Shown piece by piece: positions 155-28,200 of a DNA stretch of 41,594 nt; position 1 is the stretch's first letter, and each line of letters starts with the position of its first letter. The notes beneath the pieces were generated by a model. The model searched no databases and had not been told where the DNA came from. It worked only from the letters and a program-made list of their open reading frames with translations. The translations under genes were made by a program, and so were the position numbers. Source of the stretch: a virus; IMG/VR virus record IMGVR_UViG_3300024261_000065, positions 1 to 41,594 of that record. The stretch is one strand, 5' to 3'.

Positions 155-186
155 TCGAGCTGGGTGTCTCTTGGGTCGCGACGTTT
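155..186 (+). repeat. 32-bp GC-rich intergenic repeat, copy 1
   Basis: It begins TCGAGCTGGGTGTCTCTTGG and ends GTCGCGACGTTT. It matches 922-953 at 29 of 32 positions, all three differences being G in this copy and A in the other. Both copies lie just after a stop codon and upstream of an AT-rich promoter-like stretch, and both are much richer in GC than their surroundings. No hairpin is conserved in both copies, so a simple terminator is not supported. A protein-binding site or a recombination remnant is possible. Confidence 0.6.
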
Positions 187-547: not shown

Positions 548-913
548 ATGAAAAGAAATGAATATAGGTTATTAGTTGAAAGTTGGCGTGAAGTTTTAAA
601 AGAAGATGATTCGAAAGAAGATGATTCGAAAGAAGATGACTTATATGCGCCTATAGAAGAGCCTGACCAGTTAGATAGAGGTCTGGATTATGTAGAATCT
701 CAAATAGATTACTTTAAAAAGTCGGATACTGAAAAGGAATTGATGTTGCAAAGATTTTGTGATATGTTTGGAGTGTCAAGAGAAGAGATTGAGGCATTTT
801 TGGAGAATGTATTATTTGATGCAGGACATAATGTGGAAGGAAAAGAATTCGATTCAGAGCAGACACCTGATGATATGCCTTTGGACGATGATTTAGATGG
901 TTATGATGGGTAG
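548..913 (+). CDS. Tagged acidic protein, function unknown
   Basis: A 121-residue, very acidic protein. The N terminus MKRNEYRLLVESWREVLKE is an amphipathic helix-like tag ending in an L-K-E tripeptide (residues 17-19), the same layout as in several neighbours and like a T4-type (I/L)xE prohead-protease site. It is followed by three tandem KEDDS-type units (about residues 18-31). A mid-region helix (about residues 60-90) and another acidic tail with DDMPLDDDLD follow. No enzymatic motif is seen. Its first residues match the large protein at 5639 (MKRSEYR). The high negative charge would suit a scaffold-like or DNA-mimic protein, but that is speculation. Confidence 0.75.
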   Translation: MKRNEYRLLVESWREVLKEDDSKEDDSKEDDLYAPIEEPDQLDRGLDYVESQIDYFKKSDTEKELMLQRFCDMFGVSREEIEAFLENVLFDAGHNVEGKEFDSEQTPDDMPLDDDLDGYDG

Positions 914-921
914 AGTTTTGG

Positions 922-953
922 TCGAGCTGGGTATCTCTTGAGTCACGACGTTT
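922..953 (+). repeat. 32-bp GC-rich intergenic repeat, copy 2
   Basis: It begins TCGAGCTGGGTATCTCTTGA and ends GTCACGACGTTT, matching 155-186 at 29 of 32 positions. It lies 8 bp after the stop of the gene at 548 and is followed by the promoter-like string at 978-997. The intergenic unit as a whole therefore appears duplicated, not just the core. Confidence 0.6.
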
Positions 954-1020: not shown

Positions 1021-2934
1021 ATGAATTACGATTTATTAAAAAGTTATATTGTATCGAGTCTTAATGAAGTAAGAGGCGATTTGGCAAGAGACGATAATTT
1101 TATTAAAGAGTTATGTTCAATTGCAGGTTTGATGTTTTACAAAAGTTATATTAGTAACATAGAAGAAACAACAGTAAATTATGAGTATAAAAGAGATCCT
1201 AATGCGGAAAAGAGTCATTTAAGACCGATTGATTGGAAAAGACATAAACATATTAAAACAATAAAAAAGTGTATTGATGAAGCTTTGGAAGAAAGTAAAG
1301 AAAAATTAACTAGTTTAAATAGTGAAAATATATTTTCTATTGATGATACAAGCAATGAACATTATAGGTTATTCAGAGACAACATACCTTATGATGAGTA
1401 TCATACCATTACAAATACAAGTAATAACAAAAGGTTTAGTATATTAATTTACGATACTGAAAGTTTGCCTTTTATAGAAAAAGGAACTAAAGGAAAAATA
1501 AAAAGATATGATTCAAAAAGAGAGGATCTTTTTGGAAAGCAAGATATTAAGATTCATAAATATCTTGCTTTGTCATTTATTAGTTCTGGCGGGTCAAGCA
1601 AAGAGGAGCGTAAAATGTTTGACTCGAATTCAACCGCGACTTATAGTCCACTTTATAGAAAAAGGTTTTTAAACAAACCTGAGTCTATCTTTGTAAGCAG
1701 TGTAAGATTGTTTTTTAATAATAAACATAATAGAAAATCATTTAAAGAATATATTGACACTCTAATTGGACTAACTTATACACATAGTAAAATGTGGGAT
1801 CATGAGTTGATTAAAAAATATATTTTAGACATAGTTTCAAGTAAAGAAAGTAATTCTTCCTTAGAAGCGATAAGAAATGATCTTAGTCATGAAATAGTTC
1901 ATATGAAACAATACTTAAATAGTTTTAAAATAACAAAATATGATAAAAGATTTTTAGGTACGCATAGAAGATATGGTTTACCAGAAGTTCCTTTTAAAAA
2001 GAAAATGTATAAAGATGAAAGTGAAGGAAATTACTGGAGCGTTGGTTCAAGAAACCCACATAGAAATTCTGTAAGACATGAGATGCAACCTATTGAATTT
2101 TATGCAAGACTTTCAGACGAGTGGGAAAATTTGAAAAAAAGAATTAACCCGAAATTTAAATATAATTTAATTTTTAATATTAATAAACAAAAAATTGTAT
2201 CATTAGAGGAAAGTGTTAATAAAGAAATAAATGAAATAATATTAGATTATAGAGAAGATTCATATTGGCTTAAGCATTTATTTAGCAGTGCAAGAAAACA
2301 TTCTAAAAAAGCAAAAACTTATTATAAGAAAGCAATTCAAGAATTATACAAGTTATCAATTGAACATGTAAATAAAGTTGAAAAAGAATTAATTGATCTA
2401 TACAGTAAAAACAAAGAAAAAGTTTTGTCAGATATTGAAAATAAAAAATATCATCATAGAGCTTTTTATATAACAAAAAATTACTTAGAAAAAATAAACA
2501 AAGTAGAACATTATTCTGAGGTAGAGGATTCAGATAGAATTTATTACCATAATATTAATAAAGATTCTGAAAATAAAAATAAAAAAGCAAAAGATTCTTA
2601 TGAATATTCAAGTATAATAGAGTGGACAAAGGAAGATGTTGAAAATGCTGCTAATAGTAAAGAACATAATTTATCTAAAATTATAGATGATGATGATTGC
2701 AGTGTCTGGTGGTTAGATGAAATGGAAGGAATTATTCCTGAGATTATATACATGTTGGACGAAGATTATTTGGCAGAGCATGCAAAAGAATTATTAATTG
2801 TAATTAGAGAATTAATTATAAAAAAAGATTTGATTACACACAATGAAGATAAAAATAAACTAAAAATTAAAGATTATATTAAAGACGAATATCCTGATGT
2901 TTTCCAGATATTGGCTTTGCCGACAGCTAATTAA
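1021..2934 (+). CDS. Tagged HExxH metalloprotease-like protein
   Basis: A 637-residue protein. It opens with MNYDLLKSYIVSSLNE, a short helix ending in L-N-E (residues 14-16), the pattern shared by the genes of this block. A zincin-type motif H290-E-I-V-H294 followed by MKQY lies mid-protein. About 60 residues later HEMQPIEFYARL (H353, E359) could supply a third metal ligand. The rest is lysine-rich and helical with long charged coiled-coil-like stretches (about residues 390-520). I infer a zinc metallopeptidase; family and substrate are unknown. It stands alone between intergenic regions of about 107 and 41 bp. A structural rather than catalytic role remains possible. Confidence 0.6.
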   Translation: MNYDLLKSYIVSSLNEVRGDLARDDNFIKELCSIAGLMFYKSYISNIEETTVNYEYKRDPNAEKSHLRPIDWKRHKHIKTIKKCIDEALEESKEKLTSLNSENIFSIDDTSNEHYRLFRDNIPYDEYHTITNTSNNKRFSILIYDTESLPFIEKGTKGKIKRYDSKREDLFGKQDIKIHKYLALSFISSGGSSKEERKMFDSNSTATYSPLYRKRFLNKPESIFVSSVRLFFNNKHNRKSFKEYIDTLIGLTYTHSKMWDHELIKKYILDIVSSKESNSSLEAIRNDLSHEIVHMKQYLNSFKITKYDKRFLGTHRRYGLPEVPFKKKMYKDESEGNYWSVGSRNPHRNSVRHEMQPIEFYARLSDEWENLKKRINPKFKYNLIFNINKQKIVSLEESVNKEINEIILDYREDSYWLKHLFSSARKHSKKAKTYYKKAIQELYKLSIEHVNKVEKELIDLYSKNKEKVLSDIENKKYHHRAFYITKNYLEKINKVEHYSEVEDSDRIYYHNINKDSENKNKKAKDSYEYSSIIEWTKEDVENAANSKEHNLSKIIDDDDCSVWWLDEMEGIIPEIIYMLDEDYLAEHAKELLIVIRELIIKKDLITHNEDKNKLKIKDYIKDEYPDVFQILALPTAN

Positions 2935-2975: not shown

Positions 2976-3962
2976 ATGTTATTAGAAGTGTATATAAAAG
3001 ATTTCTTGTTAGAAATTATGAATTCTAGTGATGGGTCTGAAATTGGCGTTATTGGTGAGAAGTTAGATAAAGTGAGTAAGGATTTAAGAGCTCATTTAGA
3101 AAGTGATGATTATAGTGGGGGTATAGAAGATTTGCCTCATTATATTTATGGGGAGTTAGAGAATGTTGCATATAGTAATAAGCCGAGGATTGAGCTTTTA
3201 GATTCGGGTGCTTTTAGGAGTGGGTTTTCTATAAGCGGGAAGCTTTGGGTTTTAAAGATAGCAATGAACCCGATGGGCGCTGAAACTAATGGTAAAGAGA
3301 TAAAAATGTGTTTGGCTAAGGAACATAGTGGTGCAGCTTCAGATATATTTATTAAAGTTTTTGGGTATGATAGAGTCAATGAAAAGCCTTATTGGTATAT
3401 TTGTGAAAAAGTTAGACCTTTGAGTGACATTGAAGATATAACAATATTGAAGAACGTTTTTCCTACGTTTTGGAACGTGTTAGATCATGGTGACAAAAAT
3501 AGAGCAAAGAGTTCAGCAAAGAGTTTTAAAGAGTTTGTAGTTAGTACTATAATGATGTGTGTTTATATGACAAGGCTTCCTGAAATGAGGAGAAAGACAT
3601 ATCGTAAAGATGATGAAGAAAAGTATAGAGAGATGTTGATGTTTAACAGGAATTCTCCAGAAAGTCAAGGTAAAGAAGTTGCTAGTGACAAATTAAAAAA
3701 AGTTACTAGTAATTTTGATAATTCTGGTAAGTTAGATAGAATATTGCCAAAAATAAGTAATGTGATGTTTCATGATGCTGCTAGTAATTTTGCAAATGTT
3801 AAAGATATAGAAGATGTAATGTTTTATGAAGATTTTAAAAGATTATCAGCTGCTTTTGGTTATATTAGTACAAGTGATATGCATGACGATAACTTTGGAG
3901 TAAAGATTGTTGACAATCCTAGTCCAAGTGATATTGTTATATTAGATTTTGATATTATATAG
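2976..3962 (+). CDS. Tagged kinase-fold protein
   Basis: A 328-residue protein. The N terminus MLLEVYIKDFLLE has L-L-E at residues 11-13, the tag pattern of this block. The body fits the protein-kinase-like fold: a glycine-containing loop (GAFRSGF, 78-84), WVLKIA with K94 as the beta-3 lysine, NGKEIK with E108 as the helix-C acid, a hinge-like YICEKVRPL (141-149), a catalytic D301-M-H-D-D-N306, and LDFD (323-326) as the DFG-like metal site, which falls at the extreme C terminus. The D-x-H-x-x-N arrangement resembles the UbiB/ABC1 type more than the HRD type. Because it ends just after DFD it lacks any activation segment or large C-lobe, so an atypical or small-molecule kinase is more likely than a eukaryote-like one. 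The last codons overlap a promoter-like element. Confidence 0.6.
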   Translation: MLLEVYIKDFLLEIMNSSDGSEIGVIGEKLDKVSKDLRAHLESDDYSGGIEDLPHYIYGELENVAYSNKPRIELLDSGAFRSGFSISGKLWVLKIAMNPMGAETNGKEIKMCLAKEHSGAASDIFIKVFGYDRVNEKPYWYICEKVRPLSDIEDITILKNVFPTFWNVLDHGDKNRAKSSAKSFKEFVVSTIMMCVYMTRLPEMRRKTYRKDDEEKYREMLMFNRNSPESQGKEVASDKLKKVTSNFDNSGKLDRILPKISNVMFHDAASNFANVKDIEDVMFYEDFKRLSAAFGYISTSDMHDDNFGVKIVDNPSPSDIVILDFDII

Positions 3963-3977
3963 ATTTAGATTTTAAAG
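3935..3977 (+). repeat. 43-bp direct repeat, left copy
   Basis: Exact 43-bp match to 4586-4628. It spans the final codons of the kinase-like gene (LDFDII and stop), the promoter-like string TTTTGATATTATATAGAT (3947-3964) and the start of the leader. It brackets the Nudix gene together with the right copy. Confidence 0.9.
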
Positions 3978-4036
3978 GAATTGTATAAATGAAAATAACA
4001 GAAAATGATCTTAGGATCCTGATTAGAGAAGTATTA
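3973..4036 (+). repeat. 64-bp RBS-plus-tag repeat, left copy
   Basis: Identical to 4734-4797. It contains the ribosome binding site (AAAGGAATTGTATAA before ATG) and the first 16 codons (MKITENDLRILIREVL). The identity stops exactly where the Nudix body begins (codon 17), including at synonymous positions, so the copies are recent or are being homogenised. Confidence 0.95.
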
Positions 4037-4561
4037 GCGTTTAGTGTAAAGGGTAAAGTGATGAGAAAAAATCCTACATTTTGGGGAACCGCAGGTGCAG
4101 GTATTCTTTTTGTGTGTGAAGAAGATAATACCGTTTTCCTAATGCACAGATCGAGAGATGTGGAACAGCCAGGCACATGGGGTATTCCTGGAGGTTCTGT
4201 AAAAGGTGAGGGTTTTTATGACTCTGGAATGAGTGCTGAAAGACCCACCGACGCTACTTTTTGGAAAGGTGCAAAAAAAGAAACCAAAGAAGAATGTGGA
4301 GACTTACCCAACATGTCAAAGTCGGACATCATTGGATATATCGACTTTGTTTCGGGCAGCTTCATTTATCGAAACTTTATTGTGAGTTTGTCTCTTGAAG
4401 AAAAATTAGAATGGACATCTACAATTGAACTCAACTGGGAGAATGACACTTATGAGTGGATTTCTTTTGACGATGTAGATTCGTATAATCTGCACTTTGG
4501 TGTAGTCTATGTTTTAGATAACGATACCAATTTCCAAGATGCTTCTCAGTTAGATATCTGA
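3989..4561 (+). CDS. Tagged Nudix hydrolase
   Basis: A 190-residue protein: tag MKITENDLRILIREVL, then a Nudix domain from about residue 30. The Nudix box begins at GIPGGSVKGEG (65-75), has an insertion of roughly 17 residues (ERPTDATFW region) and resumes as AKKETKEECG (95-104), with K97 in place of the usual Arg and E98, E101, E102 kept as metal ligands. Nudix enzymes cleave nucleoside diphosphates linked to another group; the substrate is not predictable here. Codon use is less AT-biased than in flanking genes (for example CCC ACC GAC runs near 4244). The tag and RBS are identical to the next gene, and direct repeats flank the gene. The LNE cleavage-like site of the sister tag becomes LAF here, leaving only I-R-E (12-14). 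Confidence 0.85.
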   Translation: MKITENDLRILIREVLAFSVKGKVMRKNPTFWGTAGAGILFVCEEDNTVFLMHRSRDVEQPGTWGIPGGSVKGEGFYDSGMSAERPTDATFWKGAKKETKEECGDLPNMSKSDIIGYIDFVSGSFIYRNFIVSLSLEEKLEWTSTIELNWENDTYEWISFDDVDSYNLHFGVVYVLDNDTNFQDASQLDI

Positions 4562-4585
4562 GTCCACAAGTTCACTGAGTTGATA

Positions 4586-4628
4586 TGTTATATTAGATTT
4601 TGATATTATATAGATTTAGATTTTAAAG
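4586..4628 (+). repeat. 43-bp direct repeat, right copy
   Basis: Exact copy of 3935-3977, here non-coding: it carries a fossil of the last codons of the kinase-like gene plus the promoter-like string (4598-4615). About 105 bp of AT-rich, apparently empty sequence separates it from the second tag repeat at 4734. Confidence 0.9.
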
Positions 4629-4733
4629 TGAGTTGATTTATGATATTAACTATCATATTACATGTTTTTGTATAATTGAGTACACTTTAATCAAATTTAA
4701 TATAAAGTATATGTATATATAAATTAATATTTA

Positions 4734-4797
4734 TAAAGGAATTGTATAAATGAAAATAACAGAAAATGATCTTAGGATCCTGATTAGAGAAGTATTA
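4734..4797 (+). repeat. 64-bp RBS-plus-tag repeat, right copy
   Basis: Identical to 3973-4036. It provides the RBS and first 16 codons of the gene at 4750. Just upstream is TATATAAATTAATATTTATA, which could include a TATAAAT-type phage late promoter. Confidence 0.95.
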
Positions 4798-5073
4798 AAT
4801 GAAGTTGGTTCTGATTCTATTCACGTGTATAACAAGACTTCAAAGAGAATAAAAATAGGAGACATTTTTGAAGGTGATCCTATTAAAATTGGTGGTCAAG
4901 ATATTCAAGATAATCAATACTATAAAGTTATAGGTGAAGATGTTCATGAAGAAATTAAAGGGTCACGTTCAACTACATTTAATGTTATTTTAGGTGTAAT
5001 AGACGATGAAAATAATATGTCTGGTGAAGTGTATTACTTCAAGCCAGAAAGTATCTCTAAAATAGAAGATTAA
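4750..5073 (+). CDS. Tagged small protein, function unknown
   Basis: A 107-residue protein. Tag MKITENDLRILIREVL continues as NEVG, giving an L-N-E tripeptide at 16-18. The remaining ~88 residues look like a small beta-rich domain (alternating hydrophobics: IHVYN, RIKIGDIF, YYKVIG, FNVILGVI, GEVYYF). No known family is recognised. After the TAA stop the same frame stays open to 5178, which may be an old C-terminal extension. Confidence 0.75.
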   Translation: MKITENDLRILIREVLNEVGSDSIHVYNKTSKRIKIGDIFEGDPIKIGGQDIQDNQYYKVIGEDVHEEIKGSRSTTFNVILGVIDDENNMSGEVYYFKPESISKIED

Positions 5074-5178
5074 ATTAATAACCTTAATAACTATATTGGA
5101 ATATATTCTGAAGTAGTGAACTATATCGAAGATTTAGAAAAAGATTTAGGTTATAATATTTTGAGCATAGCTCTGTGA
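5074..5178 (+). pseudogene. In-frame continuation after the 4750 stop codon
   Basis: The frame of the upstream gene continues past TAA 5071-5073 for 34 more codons to TGA 5176-5178. It reads as a plausible helix (SEVVNYIEDLEKDLGYNIL) with normal codon use. There is no start codon or RBS of its own. It could be a former C-terminal part cut off by a stop mutation, or a readthrough extension. Support is weak. Confidence 0.25.
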
Positions 5179-5182
5179 TGTT

Positions 5183-5326
5183 TTAAACATTATTTAGTTT
5201 ATTTATAGTTTTATGTATTCTTATCATTTCATCTTCATCGAAACAATTTCTATTGATAGCTTCTTGGAGACATCTAATAAGAATGTTTATACAAGTTAAT
5301 TGTGTTTGTGTTATTGAGTAATGCAT
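5183..5326 (-). CDS. Possible 47-residue protein on the minus strand
   Basis: A minus-strand frame from ATG (5324-5326) to TAA (5183-5185). The C-terminal half (EAINRNCFDEDEMIRIHKTI) reads like the helical small proteins common in T4-like genomes, and it fills an otherwise empty interval. No strong ribosome binding site is visible, so it is tentative. Confidence 0.3.
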   Translation of the reverse strand: MHYSITQTQLTCINILIRCLQEAINRNCFDEDEMIRIHKTINKLNNV

Positions 5327-5361
5327 GATATTTATCATATAAGAGTTTTAGTGAGTTTACA

Positions 5362-5607
5362 ATGTTTAAGAAAATAATGTTATGTGTTGTATTTTTTGTT
5401 GCATCTGCAGTTTCTTGTAGTAGAACGTATAAGAAGATTGATGAGTCAAAGTCTGAGTGTGAGCAGATTTTGAATGTAGTAACTGATTGTATGGGATTAC
5501 ATCGTGGTGCATTTGATCATATTGCTAATTGTGGTGATGCGTCAATAGAAAGAATAAAACAGTTAAGAAATTGTGATGATATATTAAATTATTTAGAAAA
5601 TGATTAA
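5362..5607 (+). CDS. Small cysteine-rich lipoprotein
   Basis: An 81-residue protein. The N terminus MFKKIMLCVVFFVASAVSC is a typical signal sequence with a lipobox-like A-V-S-C, lipidated Cys expected at 19. The mature part has four more cysteines (in SECEQ, TDCMG, ANCGD, RNCDD) with spacing that suggests two disulfides, which fits a periplasmic or outer-membrane-anchored protein. It is the only protein here with a secretion signal instead of the tag. Phage lipoproteins such as T5 Llp block receptors against superinfection; that role is a guess from class. It supports a Gram-negative host. Confidence 0.7.
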   Translation: MFKKIMLCVVFFVASAVSCSRTYKKIDESKSECEQILNVVTDCMGLHRGAFDHIANCGDASIERIKQLRNCDDILNYLEND

Positions 5608-5638
5608 TATATTAGCTTAGAATTCAAGGATTAAATAA

Positions 5639-7501
5639 ATGAAAAGATCAGAGTATAGAGAAATTTATTTTGCTTTTAACAATTATCTTCAAAAAAGTGA
5701 GCAACAATTATTAAGAGAAGATTTAATTTATGAAAATTTAATTTTAAATGAAGGTCTTAGAGATCTGGCTGATAAATTTGGTAGAGAAGGAATATTATGG
5801 TTGACCTTAACTTCTTCAATAAATATGTTTGGGTTAAAAGCAACTGCTCAAACTTTTAATGCGTCTGAAGAACAGGTCGAGAGTATTACAGAAAATCCGC
5901 CTCCAGGTGTAGAAAATGCTACAAAAGCAGATAAGTTTGTTATAAGTCAGAGTATGGAAAACATGTCTAAAACAGAAAAATTTGACGAAGTATTGACATT
6001 AGATGACTTTGATTTTAAGAAAGAAAATATTGAAGATTTTGAAAATGAGTTAGCAGCATCAGATTTTGTTACAACTGGTGATATGCCTGTAGAAAACATG
6101 AGCGGAATTTTTATCAAAGAAACTTTTAAGTCTAATGATCAAAATAAAAAAATAATACAAGCTATTATTAAAAAAGGAATGGAAATATATGAAAGTGGAA
6201 AGTCTAATCGAGTATTCTATATTAAAGTTAATAATTTAAAATATGCAATTGCAGTTAACCCAAATATTAGTAATAGTAATAGTACTTCTTTAGTTAGTAA
6301 ATCTGCAACAAATATTACAGAATCTATATTAAAACATACTTTGCCCAACATAACGGCTGGTGATGATGAATCAAAAGAAAAATTTAAGCAATGTCGTTTA
6401 ACATTTCATGATACTCTCAACAACATCATATTTGAAGATTTAATAAAAAATACAAATTCTGCGATTGCAAGTTATTTTGATGCAAATGTTTATAGAAATA
6501 TTTTTAATAGATGCTTTTTTAAAGAAGCTGAAAAAATAAAAAGTGTAAAATTTAGCATTAATGAAGGAGACTTAGCAGGAATAATAACATTAAGATGGAT
6601 ATTTTTTCAAGATCATTTAGATAGTTTAAAAGCCTTAAATCCTGAGTGGCAACATGTTTCTAAAGAAATGATGTCTGAATTTCTTGTGCACGAACTTGGT
6701 CACTTATTAAGTGATCAAAGTGGTAGTAACATAATGGCTAAACATGAAATAAGTGAGCTTTATAATGGTATTTCATTAAAAAGGTTTAGAGTTAAAGATG
6801 TTAATAGCTATATAGCACTTCAAAACTTTAATAGATTAGGTGTACTTGATAACTTAGAAGAGTTAGGAGTAAAAAGAGAAGACATAGACACCTATGACGT
6901 ATCAGATTATTTAAGTGAAAAGGCTACTAAAAAACTCACAAAAGTTTCAGTTTATCTTATAAAACAAATGTTAGGTGGCGGAGCAATTGTGAAGGGAGAA
7001 GACAATTATTTTTACTGGACTTTTGCGGATAAAGATAAAAATAAATACTTGTACTACATGAGTCTTGAAGAAAGAATAGAAAATTTTAAAAACTGGGTTT
7101 CTTCTGTTAGATTGAAAAATCAAAAACATAAAACAATTGAAAAGTTTTTTGATGAATTGTTAGAATATACATCGGATTTGTCAAAAGATTCTGAATTCTT
7201 GTCAGATATGAAAGATTTTGCTGAAGATGATAGAGAGGAAAATGACAATAGAAATATTGATAAACTTGTCGACGAGATCAATGGTAAAAGAGCAAGAGAT
7301 AGTTTTGATTATTATTTAAGATACGAAATGAAAATCAAAGGAATAAAGTCTTCTGATCTTAATAGATTTTTAAATCTACTAAATTTTTCAAGATTTGGAA
7401 AAGACAGTGGTAATTTTGAAAAGGGACGTAAATATTTAAATTTTTCTATTGAAAACTTAAAAAAAATGTTTGAAGAGAACTTTAAAGGCCATGATCATTA
7501 A
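5639..7501 (+). CDS. Tagged HExxH metalloprotease-like protein
   Basis: A 620-residue protein preceded by AAGGAT. It begins MKRSEYR, matching the gene at 548, and the first 40 residues offer several L/I-x-E sites (L-R-E 25-27, I-Y-E 30-32, L-N-E 36-38 before Gly). A hydrophobic stretch (about 47-66) is followed by a long polar region. The clear motif is V-H351-E-L-G-H355-L-L, the zincin HExxH signature with the HELGH form typical of secreted metallopeptidases, about residue 350. This is close to the position of HEIVH in the protein at 1021, so the two may be remote paralogues. Substrate unknown. The C-terminal half is highly charged and helical. Confidence 0.65.
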   Translation: MKRSEYREIYFAFNNYLQKSEQQLLREDLIYENLILNEGLRDLADKFGREGILWLTLTSSINMFGLKATAQTFNASEEQVESITENPPPGVENATKADKFVISQSMENMSKTEKFDEVLTLDDFDFKKENIEDFENELAASDFVTTGDMPVENMSGIFIKETFKSNDQNKKIIQAIIKKGMEIYESGKSNRVFYIKVNNLKYAIAVNPNISNSNSTSLVSKSATNITESILKHTLPNITAGDDESKEKFKQCRLTFHDTLNNIIFEDLIKNTNSAIASYFDANVYRNIFNRCFFKEAEKIKSVKFSINEGDLAGIITLRWIFFQDHLDSLKALNPEWQHVSKEMMSEFLVHELGHLLSDQSGSNIMAKHEISELYNGISLKRFRVKDVNSYIALQNFNRLGVLDNLEELGVKREDIDTYDVSDYLSEKATKKLTKVSVYLIKQMLGGGAIVKGEDNYFYWTFADKDKNKYLYYMSLEERIENFKNWVSSVRLKNQKHKTIEKFFDELLEYTSDLSKDSEFLSDMKDFAEDDREENDNRNIDKLVDEINGKRARDSFDYYLRYEMKIKGIKSSDLNRFLNLLNFSRFGKDSGNFEKGRKYLNFSIENLKKMFEENFKGHDH

Positions 7502-7503
7502 CT

Positions 7504-7710
7504 TTACCACTCATATACAAGGCTTGTCTTGATAATCAAGTCATTTGTAAGAATATCTTCTGGAGGTTTTGTGTCGTACATAAAGTTTACAGAATTTTCT
7601 ATAAAAAGGTTTAAATTAGTTATCAAAAGTGTTCTTGCGTTTTCTTCTAAGTTAATTCTATAATCTTTTGGATTGTTAAACAAGGGTTGATAATAAAGAG
7701 TAAACAGCAT
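7504..7710 (-). CDS. Small hypothetical protein
   Basis: A 68-residue minus-strand protein starting 11 bp after the stop of the lysozyme-like gene, with AAGAAAG upstream as a ribosome binding site, so probably co-transcribed with it. It has no recognised domain; several aromatic and hydrophobic positions (LFTLYYQPLF, LLITNLNLFI) suggest a small folded domain. Its 3' end lies only 2 bp from the convergent gene ending at 7501. A structural or lysis accessory role is possible. Confidence 0.55.
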   Translation of the reverse strand: MLFTLYYQPLFNNPKDYRINLEENARTLLITNLNLFIENSVNFMYDTKPPEDILTNDLIIKTSLVYEW

Positions 7711-7721
7711 TAAATTCTTTC

Positions 7722-9101
7722 TTAAGAAAAAAGGTTTTTGTAAATATTTTTTAGTGAGTTATTTTCATTAATACTAGCTTCTAATTCTTCAATTACCCCA
7801 AGAAGTAATTTATAATTTTCTGTAGCTCTATCTCTATTTTGTCTATAATATGTGGGTGCACCCTTTGGAGAAATTTCTTTTGCTGCAAGTTTTAAGTGTG
7901 CTATTGTTTTTTTAATGTCAGGTTTTTCTTTTATGATTTCTTCACTATAATTTACTAAATGCTTGTTAAAGTCTGTATATACTTTTTGTAGAAAAAATAA
8001 GCCAACATTATAATTCATGTCAATAATAACAATTATAACATCTAAGTGCATTTTTTCAAAAGCGTTTTTAAAATCACTTTTTGCTTTATTATATGCTTCT
8101 TGCACGTCAAGTTCAAAACATTTTATAGCTTCCTCAAGCGTTAATACTCCTCTGTCATATGCTGCATCAATTCTTGATTTTAAGTGACTTATTTTTTTAT
8201 CAAGACGCTTTCTTTCTTTTTTAGGGAAACGATACCTATTAGTTTTTCCGACTTTACTGTTTTTTCTTTCTTCTAATTCATCAATTCTTTCTTCTATACT
8301 GGCGACGTATTTTTTTATTTCTTTTTTAACATTATCTATATATTTTTTGTCCTTTTTCAGCTCTTTAATTTTTGCATCAGAATAACCTAATTTTTTATAA
8401 ATAATATCTTTCCAGTTACCGTCTTTCTTGAGTTTTCCAGCGTTTCCTTTTGTCATGAACTGTGTGCCAAATCCTATTGATACACCACTTCTGTCTTGAT
8501 AAGGAAAAGGCTTAAAGTTTTCAAACTCCTTTATTCTTTCAATTGAAATTTCTTTAATTCTGTCGTTTCTTTTGTTTTTAATTGGTTTTGTCAGAGTTTT
8601 TTTGGTTTTTTCTTGTGAATTAATATTTTTGACTGTTGTTTGAGGAGCCACTTTTTGACTTGATTTTGCTTTACTTTGATTAATCATTTGTTCTACAGTC
8701 ATATTATTTTGATGTGCCATCAAGTCTAAAGCTTCTTTTTCTTGTTGCGGCAAATTAGCGTTAAAAAACATACTTGCTGCTAATGAGCTTACAGTTAAAC
8801 CGCCTAATGCTATATTTAGTATTTTTTTCATTTTAGATTTTAACTTAGATGCATATTCTAAATCTTCTGGTTCAACTTTGTCCTCTATTGTATCAGTGTG
8901 AATGACTTCAGTATCATCATCTTTGTAGGCTGGGTAATCAATAACTGTATCATTATTATCTAAAGAAGCTAAATTGAATTGTGTGTGTGCTCCTCCTTGA
9001 GTTTGATTAAGACGAGTCTCTTTTAACTTTTGCTTATTAATTTCATCATAAAAATTTTTTATTAAATAGTGATTTTTTTTATTTTCCGTTATAATAATCA
9101 T
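7722..9101 (-). CDS. Tagged, membrane-anchored GH24 lysozyme-like protein
   Basis: A 459-residue protein with AAGGGAA before ATG. The N terminus MIIITENKKNHYLIKNFYDE shares ITEN with the MKITEN tag and reaches L-K-E at 26-28. A transmembrane-like segment lies at about 93-113. The catalytic region is IKEFENF..YQDRSGVSIGFG: E194, D203 and S208 match the Glu-Asp-Thr triad of T4-type lysozymes, with Ser for Thr. The rest of the fold follows late (LTLEEAIKCF about 321-330, MNYNVG 362-367, YYRQNRDRATENY near 425), after a charged, coiled insertion of about 100 residues (218-318). It should cleave peptidoglycan. The tag and TM segment suggest a virion-borne wall-opening enzyme or an anchored endolysin. 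Confidence 0.7.
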   Translation of the reverse strand: MIIITENKKNHYLIKNFYDEINKQKLKETRLNQTQGGAHTQFNLASLDNNDTVIDYPAYKDDDTEVIHTDTIEDKVEPEDLEYASKLKSKMKKILNIALGGLTVSSLAASMFFNANLPQQEKEALDLMAHQNNMTVEQMINQSKAKSSQKVAPQTTVKNINSQEKTKKTLTKPIKNKRNDRIKEISIERIKEFENFKPFPYQDRSGVSIGFGTQFMTKGNAGKLKKDGNWKDIIYKKLGYSDAKIKELKKDKKYIDNVKKEIKKYVASIEERIDELEERKNSKVGKTNRYRFPKKERKRLDKKISHLKSRIDAAYDRGVLTLEEAIKCFELDVQEAYNKAKSDFKNAFEKMHLDVIIVIIDMNYNVGLFFLQKVYTDFNKHLVNYSEEIIKEKPDIKKTIAHLKLAAKEISPKGAPTYYRQNRDRATENYKLLLGVIEELEASINENNSLKNIYKNLFS

Positions 9102-9471: not shown

Positions 9472-11193
9472 ATGTCAAACTTACTTAGACTTTACGTTAA
9501 AAACTTGCTAAGCGAAGCAGGTCACGAAAGAGCAAGAGAGTCATCGTCACTATCAGGCTTGTCAGAAGATATTCATGAGCCTATTATAGTTACAATTCTT
9601 GACGACAAAGCAGCTGATTTTAATGAAGATTTAACAAAGTTTCCAGTAGAAAAAAGCTTTATTTGCTTTGCAGAGTCTGGTTTTAAAACTAATGTTATAA
9701 AAAGTCTTGAAAAAAAATGGGATGAACGATATGAATCTGATAGGAATGATCCATTATCGATTTTTTCTGCTTATGAAGACTCTAAAACCATTGAAAATGT
9801 TGATATAGGGTTGCAAGAACCAATTGAAGTAGTATATGTTATGTTTACAGATATTACTGGTGTAGATGTTAAAGCTTTAGGAAATCAAGACGACAAAGGC
9901 AACCCAACAAAAAGAAAGAGTCAGTTTGATGAATATCAAAAAACAGATGATTTTGATGATTTTGATGATAAAAAAACGTATAGAAGTCAAAAAAGAAAGT
10001 TAGGAAAACAATTTAGATTTAGTAGGGAAAACTATGGCTCTTCCTACATGCATACAAGTGCAATAGTAAAGCAGCAATTGAGCTTAGCACTTAGAGACTT
10101 AGGTCTTGTAAGAGTTGTAAAAGACATACCTGCCATCTTTAACGAAGAATATATTGAAAAAAGCTTTACAAAAATATTTAATGATAATGGTTGGAGAAGA
10201 ACACTCGCACAAATGGGATATACACCAGGAAGATCAGAAAGTGAAACAAAAAAGCTTTCAAAAGTCTATGGTATAGATAAAGATTCTGTTGCTTCTTCTT
10301 TTGACGAGGTTTTGATGGGTGCTTCATCACTTAATTCAAAAAATGATCTCGTAGATTCTATTGAAAATGGATTTGCTGCAAGTGCTGAAAAATTTATACC
10401 AAGTATATTTGAACTTTTTAAAATGTTTAGAGAAAATCCTGACGGTGTTGTTTGGTCTTTCGGCGCTTGGTTAAAAAGCTGGGAGAAAACTGGTCAATCG
10501 CAAGGATCAGAAGATATTTATAAAATACTTAATGATGCTGTAGTTACTTCTTCAACAGAAGAAAAATATAATCATAAGGGTAAAGAAAAAACACGAATAA
10601 TATACAACACTGGTGAGTTAGACGACTCTCTACTGGAAATAGCTAAAGTTAAGTTATTGAAGATGTTTGCTGATCGATATATTAGTTGGCTTAGTAAACA
10701 GTCAGACTATGTTAGAAGAAAAGACGCTGAGCTTAAGCTTAACCCAAATGAAAAACAAAACTATTCACGAGATAGAATTAAAATGGCTAAGTCGTCTTTT
10801 GTTGATTTCGAAGACAATAATAATACTATTGAAACAGATAGTGCAGGATTTCCAACAAACTTAACAGACCAGCAAAAAGCTTTATTTTTCTCTACAATTG
10901 ATCAAGACTTTAGATTTAAAATAGCAACTTTACCTCATATAAAAAAGCAAGATAATCCAATGGGTTATGCTCCAACTCCTGAAGGTTTAACGCCAGCTGA
11001 AGCTAGGGTTTGGCGATCAACTCAAGATGCAATTACTTCAAAGTATAATACTGATCTCGCAAATAAAGCTCGTAAAAAAGAAGGACTTCCAGCTCTTCCT
11101 CAAAGTTCTGTTGTTACAAGAGTTACTAATCCTATGGATAGAGCAAGAGCAGCAAGAGCAGCTAGTAAAGCAAGAAGTAAAAAAAATAAATGA
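9472..11193 (+). CDS. Large tagged protein, function unknown
   Basis: A 573-residue protein, RBS AAAGGA before ATG. The N terminus LLRLYVKNLLSEAG has L-S-E followed by Ala-Gly (residues 13-17), the closest match in the window to a T4 gp21-type cleavage site. No known domain is recognised. Visible features: a beta-rich N-terminal part (about 35-130) with PIEVVYVMFTDITGV, an acidic DDFDDFDDKK patch (about 160-170), helical central parts, and a strongly basic Arg/Lys/Ala tail (RARAARAASKARSKKNK) that could bind DNA. It overlaps the next tagged gene by 4 bp (ATGA), so the two are translationally coupled. Confidence 0.75.
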   Translation: MSNLLRLYVKNLLSEAGHERARESSSLSGLSEDIHEPIIVTILDDKAADFNEDLTKFPVEKSFICFAESGFKTNVIKSLEKKWDERYESDRNDPLSIFSAYEDSKTIENVDIGLQEPIEVVYVMFTDITGVDVKALGNQDDKGNPTKRKSQFDEYQKTDDFDDFDDKKTYRSQKRKLGKQFRFSRENYGSSYMHTSAIVKQQLSLALRDLGLVRVVKDIPAIFNEEYIEKSFTKIFNDNGWRRTLAQMGYTPGRSESETKKLSKVYGIDKDSVASSFDEVLMGASSLNSKNDLVDSIENGFAASAEKFIPSIFELFKMFRENPDGVVWSFGAWLKSWEKTGQSQGSEDIYKILNDAVVTSSTEEKYNHKGKEKTRIIYNTGELDDSLLEIAKVKLLKMFADRYISWLSKQSDYVRRKDAELKLNPNEKQNYSRDRIKMAKSSFVDFEDNNNTIETDSAGFPTNLTDQQKALFFSTIDQDFRFKIATLPHIKKQDNPMGYAPTPEGLTPAEARVWRSTQDAITSKYNTDLANKARKKEGLPALPQSSVVTRVTNPMDRARAARAASKARSKKNK

Positions 11194-12092
11194 AAAAAAC
11201 AAAAACAACAAAATTTTTGTTAAAGTCTTGGAACAAATATCTTTTAAACGAATCTATTAAATTAGATCAACATTACGAAGACAGAGAAGACTATGAAGAT
11301 TCAGGTTTTCAAATAGAAGACGAAGAAAACTTTTTAGATATTGCTGCTTCTGATCGGAAAGAGACTGGTTTGCATGGCGGATATGACGAAGAAAAAACAA
11401 AAAGACTCTCATCTTTTGATTCTTCAGGAATAAATGTAGGAATTAAAAGTATTATAGATAGATTAGAAAGTAAAGTTATAAATTCTCGTACAAAAACAGG
11501 AGATGAAAACATAAAAGGTAGGATATACCTTTATGAAAATGAATTTGAAGGTTTTATTAAGTATAATTTTGACGATTTGTTGCCTGAAGGTCGAGTTAAT
11601 AGTACATTAGAATTTGAATCTACACCTAAAGATTGGGTAATGGGTTATGGCTTAGGTGCTTATAGACACATGCTTACACACAAGTCAACAAAAGGTGTAA
11701 GCGCATTAATTTTTGAAATTATGTTGGAGTTTGTATCTATAATAAGAGGTAAAAGTTTAGTTTCTGATCGTTACTCTATAACACCACAAGCACAAAAAAA
11801 ATGGCATGTATATGCAAATAGAAATGATGTAGATTTAATACAATTAGATATGATGCCTGATGAGGCTGAGTCTTATAATTTAGAACAACTTACTCCTGAA
11901 GCTCCTGAAGATGATATTTCTCAGAAATTTAGTTTAGATTACTTTGGAGAAGATTGGACAAACTCAGTTTTTTCTAAAGCTTTCAAGAAAACAAACATGG
12001 ATGTAATAAAATATTTAATTGATTCACCGTATATTGAATTAGTATTTTCTATAAACAATGAATCAGACTTGACTTCAAAAATAAGCTTATAG
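11190..12092 (+). CDS. Tagged protein, possible acyltransferase-like domain
   Basis: A 300-residue protein whose ATG overlaps the previous stop. The tag region TTKFLLKSWNKYLLNES ends in L-N-E (19-21). An acidic linker follows (about 27-60). Residues about 150-225 carry MGYGLGAYRHM, ALIFEIMLEF, VSDRYSITPQAQKKWHVY and RNDVDLIQLD. From memory this order (glycine loop, helix, (A/S)DR..(V/I)(S/T).(E/Q)A...W..Y, DV...QLD) occurs in many uncharacterised marine-phage proteins and resembles a GNAT-like layout, but I cannot confirm the fold. Its 3' end meets the convergent gene at 12087. Confidence 0.55.
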   Translation: MKKTKTTKFLLKSWNKYLLNESIKLDQHYEDREDYEDSGFQIEDEENFLDIAASDRKETGLHGGYDEEKTKRLSSFDSSGINVGIKSIIDRLESKVINSRTKTGDENIKGRIYLYENEFEGFIKYNFDDLLPEGRVNSTLEFESTPKDWVMGYGLGAYRHMLTHKSTKGVSALIFEIMLEFVSIIRGKSLVSDRYSITPQAQKKWHVYANRNDVDLIQLDMMPDEAESYNLEQLTPEAPEDDISQKFSLDYFGEDWTNSVFSKAFKKTNMDVIKYLIDSPYIELVFSINNESDLTSKISL

Positions 12093-12622: not shown

Positions 12623-13495
12623 TTAACTATTAATTATTTTTTGAAAAGCATAAACAGCATACAAAACAATCGTATTTATCCACTCAAAAGGCTCGAGCCA
12701 CCAATAGTCAATGGCCCAAAAGCGCTTATTTTTGCTAGAAGACAATAAAGGCCAAAACAAGAAAAGAAAGTATAACAATTCGATTAATACCAGTCTATAA
12801 ATAAAATAAAAGAATATTTCTTTCCAACGCTTGTGACGAAGTCTTATTTTTACTTTTCTTTTCCCACCAATTCTTTTGGCTTTTTCTCCGTCTTTTGGCG
12901 GCTGTAATTGTATTTCATGCAAACCCAGCGCGTATATTTGTGCTGGTTCTTTTACTCCTTTAAATCTATACAACCCTACAAATACTGAAAGTGCTCTTTT
13001 TGGAATATATCTATTTTTGTTTTTCCTTGCTTTAAAAACTTTAAAAGCATTGTGGCTTAATAGTATCTGTTCTTCTCCACAAATAGACATTGTTCTTGCA
13101 GCAATATTTTTCCCTATACCTTCTAAATTTATTCTTTTTCCACCACCTCTTACGAGTTTATCATCTGATTTTACAAGTATCATTTTATCCCAGTGAATGC
13201 CGATTCTACTTCTAAAAGGAAATTTTTTTGTTCGTAAGAACTTTTTATATTCAAAAGCGAAAGCAATAGAATCCTGTATTGATCCAAAATACATTAGGTG
13301 ACCATCACTATTGTCAACCCACTGGCCGTTAAATCTGGTAATAAGATTCATAACAAGTTTATCGTGAATAGCAAACCACTGCGCTGCAGCTTTAGCGCCA
13401 TTTCTTTGAACAAATTTAGTGCTACCAATAATATCAGTTAAAACGATTGCGACATAAGATTCTGTCATATGCTCTGGTAGTTTTGTCGTATTCAT
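12623..13495 (-). CDS. Membrane-anchored class III nucleotidyl cyclase
   Basis: A 290-residue protein. The catalytic domain (about 13-200) shows the class III signature: VLTDIIGST with metal ligand D21, NSDGHLMYF with second metal ligand D64, RIGIH (97-101), and GIGKNIAAR with transition-state residues N130 and R134. The substrate-selecting positions are unusual: no Lys before the second Asp (WVDNS instead of VKTxG) and Asn in NLEG where Asp is common, so the base made (A, G, C or U) is uncertain. A basic linker (about 200-220) leads to two membrane segments (about 222-246 and 268-286), which puts the enzyme at the inner face of the membrane. The gene lies between a Cys-rich mini-protein and a two-TM protein, 5 bp and 47 bp away, likely one operon. 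Confidence 0.8.
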   Translation of the reverse strand: MNTTKLPEHMTESYVAIVLTDIIGSTKFVQRNGAKAAAQWFAIHDKLVMNLITRFNGQWVDNSDGHLMYFGSIQDSIAFAFEYKKFLRTKKFPFRSRIGIHWDKMILVKSDDKLVRGGGKRINLEGIGKNIAARTMSICGEEQILLSHNAFKVFKARKNKNRYIPKRALSVFVGLYRFKGVKEPAQIYALGLHEIQLQPPKDGEKAKRIGGKRKVKIRLRHKRWKEIFFYFIYRLVLIELLYFLFLFWPLLSSSKNKRFWAIDYWWLEPFEWINTIVLYAVYAFQKIINS

Positions 13496-16465: not shown

Positions 16466-16924
16466 ATGGAAAAATGCACAGGTGCAGGAATAATCTTGTA
16501 TGTTGACAATAGAGGAATAAGTGAAATATCAAATCCTGATTATGAAAAAGATATACTTTATTTTTTTCTTGAAAGGGAAGACGGTCAATTAGATTTTCCA
16601 AAAGGAGGTATTGACAAAGGTGAAAATAGTCCTTTAGACTGTGCAATAAGAGAAACAAAAGAGGAATCTAATTTAAAAACTTTTGATTATGACCTTTTAG
16701 AGCCAGAAGTAAACTTTTTAGAATGTGGAGAAGGACTAATACTTTTTTTAGGTAAACTTCATATGCATTCAATGAAACATGCAAAAGTTTTAAGAAACGA
16801 AAAAACATTAGAGTTTGAGCATAAAGAAGACGGTTGTAGATATCTTACTAAGTTAGAAGGCGAAAAAAATCTTTTGGACTATCTACAAATAGGATTAAAC
16901 TGGGCTGACAAAATCATACAATAA
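16466..16924 (+). CDS. Nudix hydrolase, Ap4A-pyrophosphatase-like
   Basis: A 152-residue protein, RBS AAAGGAATAAC. The fold starts at GAGIILY. The Nudix box FPKGGIDKGEN..CAIRETKEESN (44-69) has one extra residue between the first Glu and Arg62, and Asn in place of the final Gly; E63, E66 and E67 are present. FPKGG is typical of the Ap4A/DIPP side of the family. It lies 14 bp after the helicase gene. It is unrelated in detail to the tagged Nudix protein at 3989 and lacks the tag. Confidence 0.85.
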   Translation: MEKCTGAGIILYVDNRGISEISNPDYEKDILYFFLEREDGQLDFPKGGIDKGENSPLDCAIRETKEESNLKTFDYDLLEPEVNFLECGEGLILFLGKLHMHSMKHAKVLRNEKTLEFEHKEDGCRYLTKLEGEKNLLDYLQIGLNWADKIIQ

Positions 16925-25262: not shown

Positions 25263-28200
25263 ATGTCAAGAGACTTTTTAGCATCAAGAGTTAGATCAAG
25301 CGCTTTAATAGGTAATAATAATGGTCAAGAGCCTTCTTTACTATTATATCCGTCAAGTGAAGCTTCTAATAATACAGGTGCAAGATCAGCGTCATTAGCA
25401 AGTTTTTTAAGCGATTCATCTAACTATCCTGTAAATACCTTTTTATATGTGTTTGGAACACCTACAACTTCACAACAAGCAACAGGAGTTTTGCCTGGAA
25501 ATAATTCTACAATTTTTGGTGGTGATGTTGTTTTAAAAGGCACTTTATTTGCTGATTACTTAAGAACAAATAGCGGTGTATTGATTGATTTTGCAGGAAT
25601 AGCGTATATAACGCCGCAAGGAACAAATTACATTTCAGATCCAAATGGTCCAACTACTGCAGCAGACGCTGACGTTATTCTGGATGCAAAAATAAAAACC
25701 AATGTAGATAATATAGATTTAAATCTACAAGCTATTAATAATAATTTAGCATTATTAAATACACATGAAGCTGCAATAGGTTTAAACTTAGCCACAGGAG
25801 ATTTTGTTGCTAAAGTTAATTCAAACTACTTGGACGCAGCAACATCTATATCAAATGAAATATCTTTATTAGATACACAAATTGGTGCAAATGAAACTAA
25901 TATATCATCTAAAGTGTCTCAAGCTTCTTTTGATACGCTCGAAGAAAAAGTTGATAAAATACAAATAGCGTCAGGATTAGATGTTAACGGTGATTATGTT
26001 GTTAATAATCCAAGCAATTATATTGGTAATGCAATATCTTTAAATGATGCTGATTTAAAATTAGACACACAAATAAAAGCTAATACAGATACAATCAGTG
26101 CTTTTGGCGTTGGTACTTTTGCCAATTTACAAGGTCAAATAACTCAAAACACTAACGATATAACAGACTTACAGGCTGCTGATATTGTACTGCAAAATAA
26201 TATTAATGCTGAGGTGGGTACAAGACAAACAGCTGACGAAACGCTTCAGGGTAATATAGATGCTGAAGAGCTGAGTAGAATAGATGCAGATGCAGTTCTA
26301 CAGGGTCAAATAACTCAAAACGAAGGTGGCATATCTGGTCTAAGAACAGACTTAACAACTGCAGAAGTCAATATAACTGGCTTAAGAACGGATTTAACAA
26401 CTGCAGAAGGTTTGATATTAACAAAAACATCACAGACTGAAGTAGATACAATTAAAGAATCTGTTGGATTAGAAGCAGCCGACGGAACATTATCTAACTT
26501 TTTAAGTACTTTTTTCATTGATAATGAAGATACTGTAAAGTCTGCTATCGAAAGCTTAGACACACAACTTGATTCAACACAAAATAGTCTTGCTGGCGAG
26601 ATATTGAATAGACAAACTGAAGATTTGAGTTTACGTAATTTAATTAATTCCGCAACAAGTAATGTAGGACTGGCTTTAACAGGACTTAGAGGAAATTATT
26701 CTTCTACAAATTTTATAAACAATACACAAACACATCATACAGCTTTAGGTCAGCTTGATACGACTTTAGACACAGTCTTAACTTCTTTAAATCAAGAAAT
26801 AACAGCACGACAAACTGACGATCAAAGTCTTAGAAATGATCTTAATACAGAAATAACTAATAGAGAAAATGCAGATACAGCACTTCAAGATCAAATAACA
26901 CTAAACGATAATGATATTCAAGGCTTACAAGCAGCTGATATTGTGCTACAAAATAATATCAACACAGAGACTACTACGAGACAAACAGCAATCGAAACGC
27001 TTCAGGGCAATATAGATGCTGAAGAGCAGAGTAGAATAGCTGCAGACATAGTGCTACAGGGTCAAATAACACAGAATTCTGATGATATTGTTGTGATAAG
27101 AGGGGATGTAACTGCAGCAGAAAGTAACATAACTGATTTAAGAACAGACCTGACATCAGCTGAAGATGATATTTTAACAAAAGCGTCTCAAGCTGAGATC
27201 AATGTCATAAAAACTTCAGTTGGTTTAAATATTGATGGTTCTTATGACACACACGACGATTCAGAGTTTTTAAACAATGCAACATCTGTTAAAGACGCTT
27301 TAAGTAAGCTAGATACACAGCTTGAAGCTACGCAAAAAGAAGTTGACGATGAAGAAACTTTAAGAGCAAGTCAAATTAGCAGCTTAAATAATGAAATAAA
27401 TACAATTGAAAACAGCTTAGGCCTATCAGGTGCTGGTCTTCGTGGAAATTATTCAAATACTAATTTTATTGCTAATACAGATACACACCATATTGCACTT
27501 GGTAAATTAGATGGTGCTTTGGCATCATTTGATAATGCTGGTCAAGTCGAAAGCTTACAAGCAATAAAACAGTCAGTAGGAACTGATAACGGTGGTGATA
27601 TTCAAGATTATAGCTCAAATAACTTTATTGTTAATGCTGATATACAAAACAACATTACACAAGATTCGCATCATGTAGCTATTGGTAAACTTGATGCTGC
27701 GATTGGAAATCAAAGTATTTTTAGTCTTGTTGATATAAATGATGAAAACAAAGCTGATGGTAAAATTCTGCAATATTCAATCGGAGGCAATGAATTTGTT
27801 TATGTTGATGCTGCTGCCGGCGCACAAGGTGAACAGGGACCACAAGGTGAACAGGGACCACAAGGTGAACAGGGACCACAAGGCCCACAAGGCCAACAGG
27901 GTCCGCAAGGCGATGCAGGTGTGCAGGGTGTACAGGGTCCAGCAGGCCCTCAAGGTCCAGCAGGACAACAAGGTGATGCAGGTCCGCAAGGTGATGCAGG
28001 TCCGCAAGGCGATGCAGGTCCGCAAGGACCACAAGGCGACGCAGGTCTGCAAGGTGACCAAGGACCACAAGGTGATGCAGGTCTGCAAGGTGATGCAGGC
28101 CCACAAGGCCCACAAGGACCACAAGGCGACGCAGGTCCTCAAGGCGACGCAGGTCCTCAAGGTGACCAAGGTCTTCAAGGTGATGCAGGTCCGCAAGGTG

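Follow-up and report, generated by a model that had tools for sequence, protein, structure and literature searches.

The 41,594-nucleotide (nt) stretch of viral DNA analysed here (positions 1 to 41,594 of the IMG/VR record IMGVR_UViG_3300024261_000065; hereafter the window) encodes a Nudix hydrolase in what is probably an exchange slot of a T4-type cargo island, where a foreign Nudix body appears to have been joined recently to a copy of the N-terminal tag of the neighbouring gene. Unrelated proteins of this island are made with one of three short N-terminal tags, which would most likely bind to the prohead core until a T4-type S77 protease cuts after (L/I)xE; the mature cargo would then be kept alongside the DNA until its ejection into the host. 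In the lineage of the window, after its split from a related contig (L005), a Nudix body with foreign codon use would have been fused to a duplicate of the leader and tag of the neighbouring gene and set between two copies of the tail of an upstream kinase-like gene. This tail carries the promoter-like box of the slot, so that the displaced gene would keep a promoter. An older gene of the slot, which is whole in L005, would have been lost independently save for its 3' end. The likeliest route may be recombination, driven by homology or microhomology, between phage genomes that infect the same cell or form concatemers, with no dedicated integrase.

Repeats framing the Nudix gene and origin of its body

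Two exact direct repeats frame the Nudix gene (Table 1), and both had been described in an earlier note made from the letters of the window alone. The 64-bp repeat (64/64 bp) covers the ribosome-binding site (RBS) region and the first 16 codons (MKITENDLRILIREVL) of the Nudix gene and of the next gene, while the 43-bp repeat (43/43 bp), comprising the tail of the kinase-like gene and a promoter-like box, lies on both sides of the Nudix gene. By comparison, 30 order-2 Markov shuffles of 15 kb contained no exact repeat longer than 17 bp. The two repeats overlap by 5 bp (TAAAG, 3973-3977), suggesting that short homology joined the kinase tail to the tag leader. The tags of the Nudix gene and the next gene, identical at 48/48 positions, are the most similar of 300 pairs of class A tags (see below), with a chance of about 3e-5 that all 15 codons would be coded identically. 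The identity had been thought to end exactly at the cargo boundary, but it stops slightly short of it, at Leu16, still within the tag, with Glu18 of the LNE/V of the downstream gene two codons further on (slashes mark tag ends). As a result, this site reads LAF in the Nudix gene, as the earlier note had stated, yet an internal IRE (residues 12-14) remains near the N-terminus; no (L/I)xE site is present at the tag end of the Nudix protein.

The Nudix assignment made in that note was confirmed by a match to Pfam PF00293 (37 bits with a cutoff of 21, E=3.6e-9), and a Nudix-box-like motif with the catalytic glutamates, KETKEECG, which has Lys in place of the usual Arg, can be read in the sequence. 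Its view that the body is less AT-biased in codon use than its surroundings was likewise borne out. The guanine-plus-cytosine (GC) content is 39%, compared to 26-36% in the neighbouring genes, and the synonymous-codon log-likelihood is -1.12, compared to -0.87 +/- 0.08, with none of 314 control windows being as low in this measure or as high in GC content at third codon positions. This atypical codon use, together with the identical tag, fits a recently placed foreign body. The linker AFSVKGKV between tag and body may once have been the 5' untranslated region of this gene, given that similarity to a distant homologue, gene 242 of Salicola phage SCTP-2 (L017 2402-2929; 29% identity), begins at FWG, a few residues past Met25 and just after the linker. 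The product of gene 242 has an N-terminal extension (MRLDNVDNVDNVDRILFE, followed by SDP) which ends in ILFE/S and resembles a capsid-targeting tag, and SCTP-2 also encodes an S77 protease and gp23. A second, untagged Nudix gene (PF00293) occurs beside a helicase gene at 16466-16924 of the window, with similar open reading frames (ORFs) at this place in relatives.

The slot in related phages

Ten related contigs, the largest of 211 and 239 kb, served for comparison, and in most of these a hypervariable stretch holding the tagged ORFs adjoins a conserved block consisting of a lipoprotein-like gene, an inverted gene coding for 420-470 amino acids (aa) and a T5orf172 gene. The kinase tail is present in two other IMG/VR contigs. 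One of these, IMGVR_UViG_3300024339_000062, has the same arrangement with 1 mismatch in 11,063 bp and may share the assembly origin of the window. The other, L005, is 96.6% identical to the window in the kinase region, has one copy of the kinase tail and contains no Nudix gene. Its slot holds a 278-aa ORF (7016-7852) which starts 28 bp past the kinase stop codon and bears the tag MNRKEWNILVESWNKYLNE, followed by SP. The last codons of this gene persist in the window behind the next gene, as SEVVNYIEDLEKDLGYNILSIAL and a stop codon, indicating that the slot once held a different cargo, the end of which is still there. The Nudix gene was absent from the nine other relatives searched. In the window the two 43-bp copies match each other exactly, whereas towards the end of the repeat both depart from the L005 sequence, so the duplication of the kinase tail most likely postdates the split from L005. 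The earlier note had proposed a search for relatives without the Nudix gene or with another body at the same junction, and had held that exchange would be in doubt if all relatives shared the Nudix arrangement. L005 both lacks the Nudix gene and carries another body, and the claim of cargo exchange at this junction is directly supported by its alternative cargo and by the remnant in the window.

A second bracketed insertion is located at 8201-9048 of L005, where a tagged gene absent from the window (8312-8815; MLIKESQLRAIIREELL...) is flanked on each side by an exact 46-bp copy of the tail of the lipoprotein-like gene that precedes it. The 105-bp stretch behind this insertion resembles positions 7528-7632 of the window. 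The inserted gene, whose product starts with MLIKES, was considered as a truncated copy of a metalloprotease-like gene, and this was rejected as the match is unconvincing (E=0.047).

Promoter-like box and intergenic element

A box of the ATA[AT]ATAG type is found upstream of 20 of the 70 tagged genes and of nine of the 478 others, mostly 33-43 nt before the start codon. Considering this enrichment, the second kinase tail, described in the earlier note as a fossil, is better read as a promoter. The duplicate tail is present as described, but the box within it is retained, and rather than being a dead relic it is probably the preserved promoter of the displaced gene. The short stretch behind it (4629-4642) may be the leader of that gene, to judge by its weak similarity to the leader in L005.

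A 27-bp intergenic element (GAGCTGGGTGTCTCTTGAGTCACGACG) occurs in 25 copies, two in the window and 23 in L005 and L008-L013, which form a single subgroup in this respect. The element mostly follows the stop codon of a cargo gene by 2-30 nt, and its spacing to the tagged ATG that comes next is fixed, at about 70-78 or 130-150 nt. Copies are confined to the islands, with none found elsewhere in the contigs of 95, 211 and 239 kb, and exact matches in IMG/VR came from seven contigs, six of which were already in the collected set; by these matches the element is, within IMG/VR, restricted to the phage group studied here. A hairpin-defined recombination site was rejected, as the element folds weakly (-4.5 kcal/mol) and does not flank the Nudix gene. 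Integron-like site-specific exchange was also rejected, no PF00589 or PF00239 match (integrase, resolvase) being found in six contigs, those of 211 and 239 kb included. A RecA-like gene is encoded in the two largest relatives, G007 and G010, which, along with the lack of tyrosine and serine recombinase matches, favours homology- or microhomology-driven recombination.

Tag classes and their combination with different bodies

Three classes of tags were distinguished in the island: class A, M(K/R)ITESxLRxIIRxVIxE; class B, MNRKEYKLLVEGWxxYLNE; and class C, M(I/L)LExYIKEfLLE. Class A tags are carried by 82 distinct proteins in 79 stretches of IMG/VR, and the 76 proteins long enough to compare fall into 60 body families. 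Across 341 class A pairs whose bodies are unrelated, DNA identity drops from 0.84 at the start to about 0.5 where the tag ends, and is 0.3 further on. A short N-terminal sequence common to otherwise unrelated proteins, as in tagging by a capsid-targeting sequence (CTS), is thus present in this group. Three body families carry tags of different classes, namely the family of the L005 slot gene (B and C), the kinase-like family (C and B) and the family comprising the gene at 548 of the window (B) and its G007 relative (A), indicating that bodies and tags recombine independently over long times.

Identity within the tags is lower at codon position 3 (0.47) than at the other positions (0.71 and 0.76). 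General concerted evolution of the tags was rejected, since the identity of class A tags within genomes (0.73) is barely above that between genomes (0.68) and synonymous sites are near saturation; most tag sharing therefore reflects old conservation at the protein level. Recent copying of tag DNA is visible in only a few pairs. In one tandem pair in G010 (203734-205361; L014 4087-5714) the bodies are unrelated and the 14 tag codons (MILENYIKEVLLFE) are identical in DNA, the identity running from the ATG to the Glu of the predicted cut with nothing shared before or after it (chance about 3e-4).

Predicted function of the tags

The motif (L/I)xE with its Glu at residues 17-24 is found in 50 of the 60 class A families and in 59 of the 406 other ORFs (p=1e-26), and stands at the tag end in 11 of 11 class C and 15 of 22 class B tags. 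A wider count with the Glu at residues 14-26 (60/60) is inflated by the IRE within the tag and was set aside for the narrower one. G004, G007, G010 and SCTP-2 encode an S77 prohead protease of the T4 type together with a gp23 capsid protein, and S77 also occurs in ten of 20 further tag-bearing contigs. As these head proteins are encoded by the relatives, the tags most likely act as capsid-targeting sequences comparable to that of T4, a stretch of 10-20 residues that gp21 cleaves off and that is able to carry proteins of foreign origin (PMC9026906, PMC5694885, PMC3012670). In the capsid protein, a candidate cleavage site, LRE59/SST, is located directly before the region aligned to mature T4 gp23, and short conserved genes adjoining the protease gene share tag-like N-termini (MAKVSRSMLKSIVKECLVELLAE, followed by GL). 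The small gene beside the prohead protease (G007 7692-8117, G010 121786-122202 and G004 85427-85855) has the conserved N-terminus MAKVSRSMLKSIVKECLVELLAEGL, and its product is possibly a core protein with a tag related to those of the cargo.

In the T4 internal protein IPIII, residues 4 and 7 matter for targeting and residues 8 and 10 for processing, while Asp at position 10 blocks processing with targeting kept (PMC9026906). By analogy, the tagged Nudix protein would be packaged yet cut poorly or elsewhere, as the junction destroys the usual cleavage triplet.

Evaluation of the proposed history

Several points count against the proposed exchange and the predicted role of the tags. The slot is covered by one relative only (L005), and the only other contig with the Nudix gene is nearly identical to the window. 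A donor of the Nudix body was not found among phages, GTDB genomes, IMG/VR and the PDB, where SCTP-2 gene 242 was the only homologue. Being a fragment, the window itself holds no head genes; S77 and gp23 are known from its relatives, and packaging and cleavage are predicted from sequence and by analogy with T4. Seven of the 22 class B tags lack a clean (L/I)xE at the expected positions, and the Nudix protein, having lost LNE, may be non-functional cargo if its release needs processing. AlphaFold models of the Nudix and kinase-like proteins (pLDDT 30 and 41) were not used.

The earlier note had recombination at promoter/tag repeats place a foreign body behind an existing tag. Exchange as such is supported, and the sequence would fit either recombination at the tag itself or the joining of tandem alleles with later copying of the tag. 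The second course, which appears rather unlikely, would have set an allele consisting of a kinase tail and a tagged Nudix gene from another phage before a second allele with its own tail, by unequal or illegitimate recombination. The Nudix gene would have been tagged beforehand, and the identical tags would result from later conversion or a shared recent source. A single step would thereby explain the presence of the upstream tail on both sides, in the window and equally in the lipoprotein slot of L005 (46-bp repeat), and the extension of the SCTP-2 Nudix protein suggests that tagged Nudix alleles may be old. However, no contig was found with the Nudix gene directly in the slot and without the second allele, the 64/64 tag identity, against about 73% in other within-genome class A pairs, needs recent copying, and the linker AFSVKGKV and the missing LNE give the impression of a recent fusion not yet refined. 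A wider generalisation, for which the case is appreciable though tentative, is that of a standing plug-in system, in which interchangeable tag cassettes (a promoter box, a leader, a tag of 13-19 codons and, in one subgroup, the 27-bp spacer) capture outside genes by homology-driven recombination. The tail of the upstream gene would be duplicated so that the displaced gene retains its promoter, and the Nudix gene would represent an early-stage capture with its cleavage site and codon use still unadjusted.

It is improbable that the tags are some other N-terminal signal, which binds another assembly or replication structure or serves as a translational or regulatory leader. The capsid-targeting role is deduced indirectly, and the class B tags and Nudix protein without (L/I)xE at the expected positions would suit such a signal. 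Against this stand the marked excess of (L/I)xE where the tags end, the occurrence of S77 and gp23 in the same genomes and the similar N-termini of the short genes next to the protease, while the protein-level conservation evident from codon position 3 argues against a leader acting purely as DNA or RNA. An assembly artefact, in which short repeats led the assembler to join different strains, is very unlikely. The contig is metagenomic and the 43- and 64-bp repeats sit exactly at the joints, but the same order recurs in the second public contig (which may share its origin), ORFs read through all joints, another slot of L005 has the same anatomy, and misjoining at repeats does not explain why the end of the L005 gene persists in the window. 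The least credible of these explanations is that an ordinary tandem duplication was followed by divergence of the two bodies. It would account for neighbouring genes with the same start, but past their 100% identical tags the Nudix gene and the next gene show no similarity, with a DNA identity of 0.30, a Pfam Nudix domain is present in one and absent from the other, and their codon use differs.

Comparison with known systems

Several T4 internal proteins block host restriction enzymes, and there is a long-standing suspicion that T4 internal proteins are interchangeable cargo attached to an invariant tag. The island shares with T4 IPI, IPII, IPIII and Alt (CTS, gp21) a short N-terminal tag on otherwise unrelated proteins with (L/I)xE at its end, an S77-type protease together with gp23, and variation between related phages. 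It differs from them in the many tagged genes per phage, the three tag classes, the long tags (13-19 residues), the enzyme cargos (Nudix, AAA_33 P-loop) and the visible recent swaps; furthermore, packaging and cleavage are predicted here, and the Nudix protein lacks the usual site. The internal proteins of T-even phages are diverse with only the CTS conserved (PMC3012670), show no homology beyond the leader and are located in a hotspot (PMC12373910), and the CTS has been suggested as an evolutionary means for incorporating various proteins (PMC9026906).

The PeSL mobile regulatory cassettes of T4-type phages (Arbiol 2010; Comeau 2014, as cited in PMC4503421), as far as they are outlined there, similarly place a recurring regulatory sequence between the small genes of a hyperplastic region, and genes are exchanged between related phages. 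A repeated promoter-like sequence between cargo genes is also found here (the box at 20/70 against 9/478 genes), but the shared unit extends into the coding tag, the box is of the ATA(A/T)ATAG type and the 27-bp element, set against the stem-loop terminator that adjoins an early promoter in PeSL cassettes, forms a weak hairpin. In the giant phages SPN3US and the phiKZ group, the prohead protease removes N-terminal propeptides from ejected head proteins (PMC5694885); these are mostly much longer (about 124-127 residues), whereas short tags and a gp23-type capsid protein occur here. The row of small genes with a repeated element between them recalls integron cassette arrays, from which the island differs in having no integrase match, an element conserved in sequence and not as a folded site, and a promoter-like box and tag on each gene.

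The kind of system is known, both from T4 internal proteins behind the CTS and from the shuffling of regulatory cassettes in T4-type phages. What sets this case apart is how many and how varied the tagged cargos are, together with the existence of three tag classes and of recent swaps that can be seen directly. Exchange can be followed in the sequence as different cargo in the same slot, the remnant of a displaced gene, an identical tag on bodies that are unrelated and, conversely, one body combined with different tags. The tag and (L/I)xE provide a sequence handle for listing candidate injected proteins in uncultured T4-type phages, and the arrangement yields a testable rule for the gain of injected proteins.

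Features of the island and neighbouring genes

The kinase label given to the upstream gene in the earlier note stands in part, in that the family alignment has conserved G-x-G, WVLK, HxxN and ILDFD motifs, but Pfam and PDB profile searches with the product of 2976-3962 yielded no kinase match. Lipoprotein-like ORFs similar to that at the right border of the slot are found by inspection at the same place in other relatives.

Table 1. Coordinates of the Nudix slot and associated features in the window
Feature	Position	Strand	Remarks
27-bp intergenic element GAGCTGGGTGTCTCTTGGGTCGCGACG	157..183	+	
Class B tagged gene MKRNEYRLLVESWREVLKE	548..913	+	Body found behind class A tag in G007 (36% identity, E=5e-10)
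27-bp intergenic element	924..950	+	10 nt past stop of gene 548, 70 nt before next tagged ATG
Class C tagged gene, MNYDLLKSYIVSSLNE followed by V	1021..2934	+	637 aa; 19.9 bits
Upstream tagged gene with kinase-like motifs	2976..3962	+	328 aa; class C tag MLLEVYIKDFLLE followed by I, 20.8 bits
43-bp repeat, copy 1	3935..3977	+	Last kinase codons and promoter-like box; exact repeat
Promoter-like box TTATATAG	3955-3962	+	Overlaps kinase stop codon, inside 43-bp repeat
64-bp repeat, copy 1	3973..4036	+	RBS region and 16 tag codons of Nudix gene
Tagged Nudix hydrolase gene	3989..4561	+	190 aa, MKITENDLRILIREVL followed by AFSVKGKV and MRKN...; PF00293
Junction linker AFSVKGKV, 24 nt	4037..4060	+	AAGGG shortly before ATG at 4061
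Nudix body, atypical codon use	4037..4561	+	GC 39%; 0/314 control windows as deviant
43-bp repeat, copy 2	4586..4628	+	Kinase tail without gene; box retained at 4606-4613; single copy in L005
Putative leader and ATG (4640) of displaced gene	4629..4642	+	Short following frame MILTIILHVFV and stop
64-bp repeat, copy 2	4734..4797	+	RBS region and tag of next gene
Next tagged gene	4750..5073	+	107 aa, MKITENDLRILIREVLNE followed by VG; no Pfam family
Remnant 3' end of L005 slot gene, SEVVNYIEDLEKDLGYNILSIAL and stop	about 5107..5178	+	DNA identity 95% with L005 from 5119
Conserved small lipoprotein-like gene	5362..5607	+	Right border of variable slot; 81-aa homologue in L005
Class C tagged gene, MSNLLRLYVKNLLSE followed by A	9472..11193	+	573 aa; 18.7 bits
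Class B-like tagged gene, MKKTKTTKFLLKSWNKYLLNE followed by S	11190..12092	+	Body family is that of the L005 slot gene

The conserved inverted gene at 7722-9101 (minus strand) codes for a product with the N-terminus MIIITENKKNHYLIKNF..., a possible tag, and a lysozyme-like stretch (FENFKPFPYQDRSGVSIGFGTQ), and has no Pfam match. A gene present in nearly all relatives is located at 12623-13495 (minus strand); its product contains a motif like that of class III nucleotide cyclases (VLTDIIGSTKFVQRNG...) and has no Pfam match at 0.01. The PDB profile match of A1 to a tendon-repeat design reflects helix composition in one part and was not used. Positions 25263-32291 encode a protein of 2342 aa that includes collagen-like repeats (PF01391, E=1e-26). 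In L005, an 836-aa cargo-island protein (3431-5941) shows weak similarity to MopE-like metal-binding and thrombospondin type 3 repeats, which are unusual for a phage and may hint at the host group.

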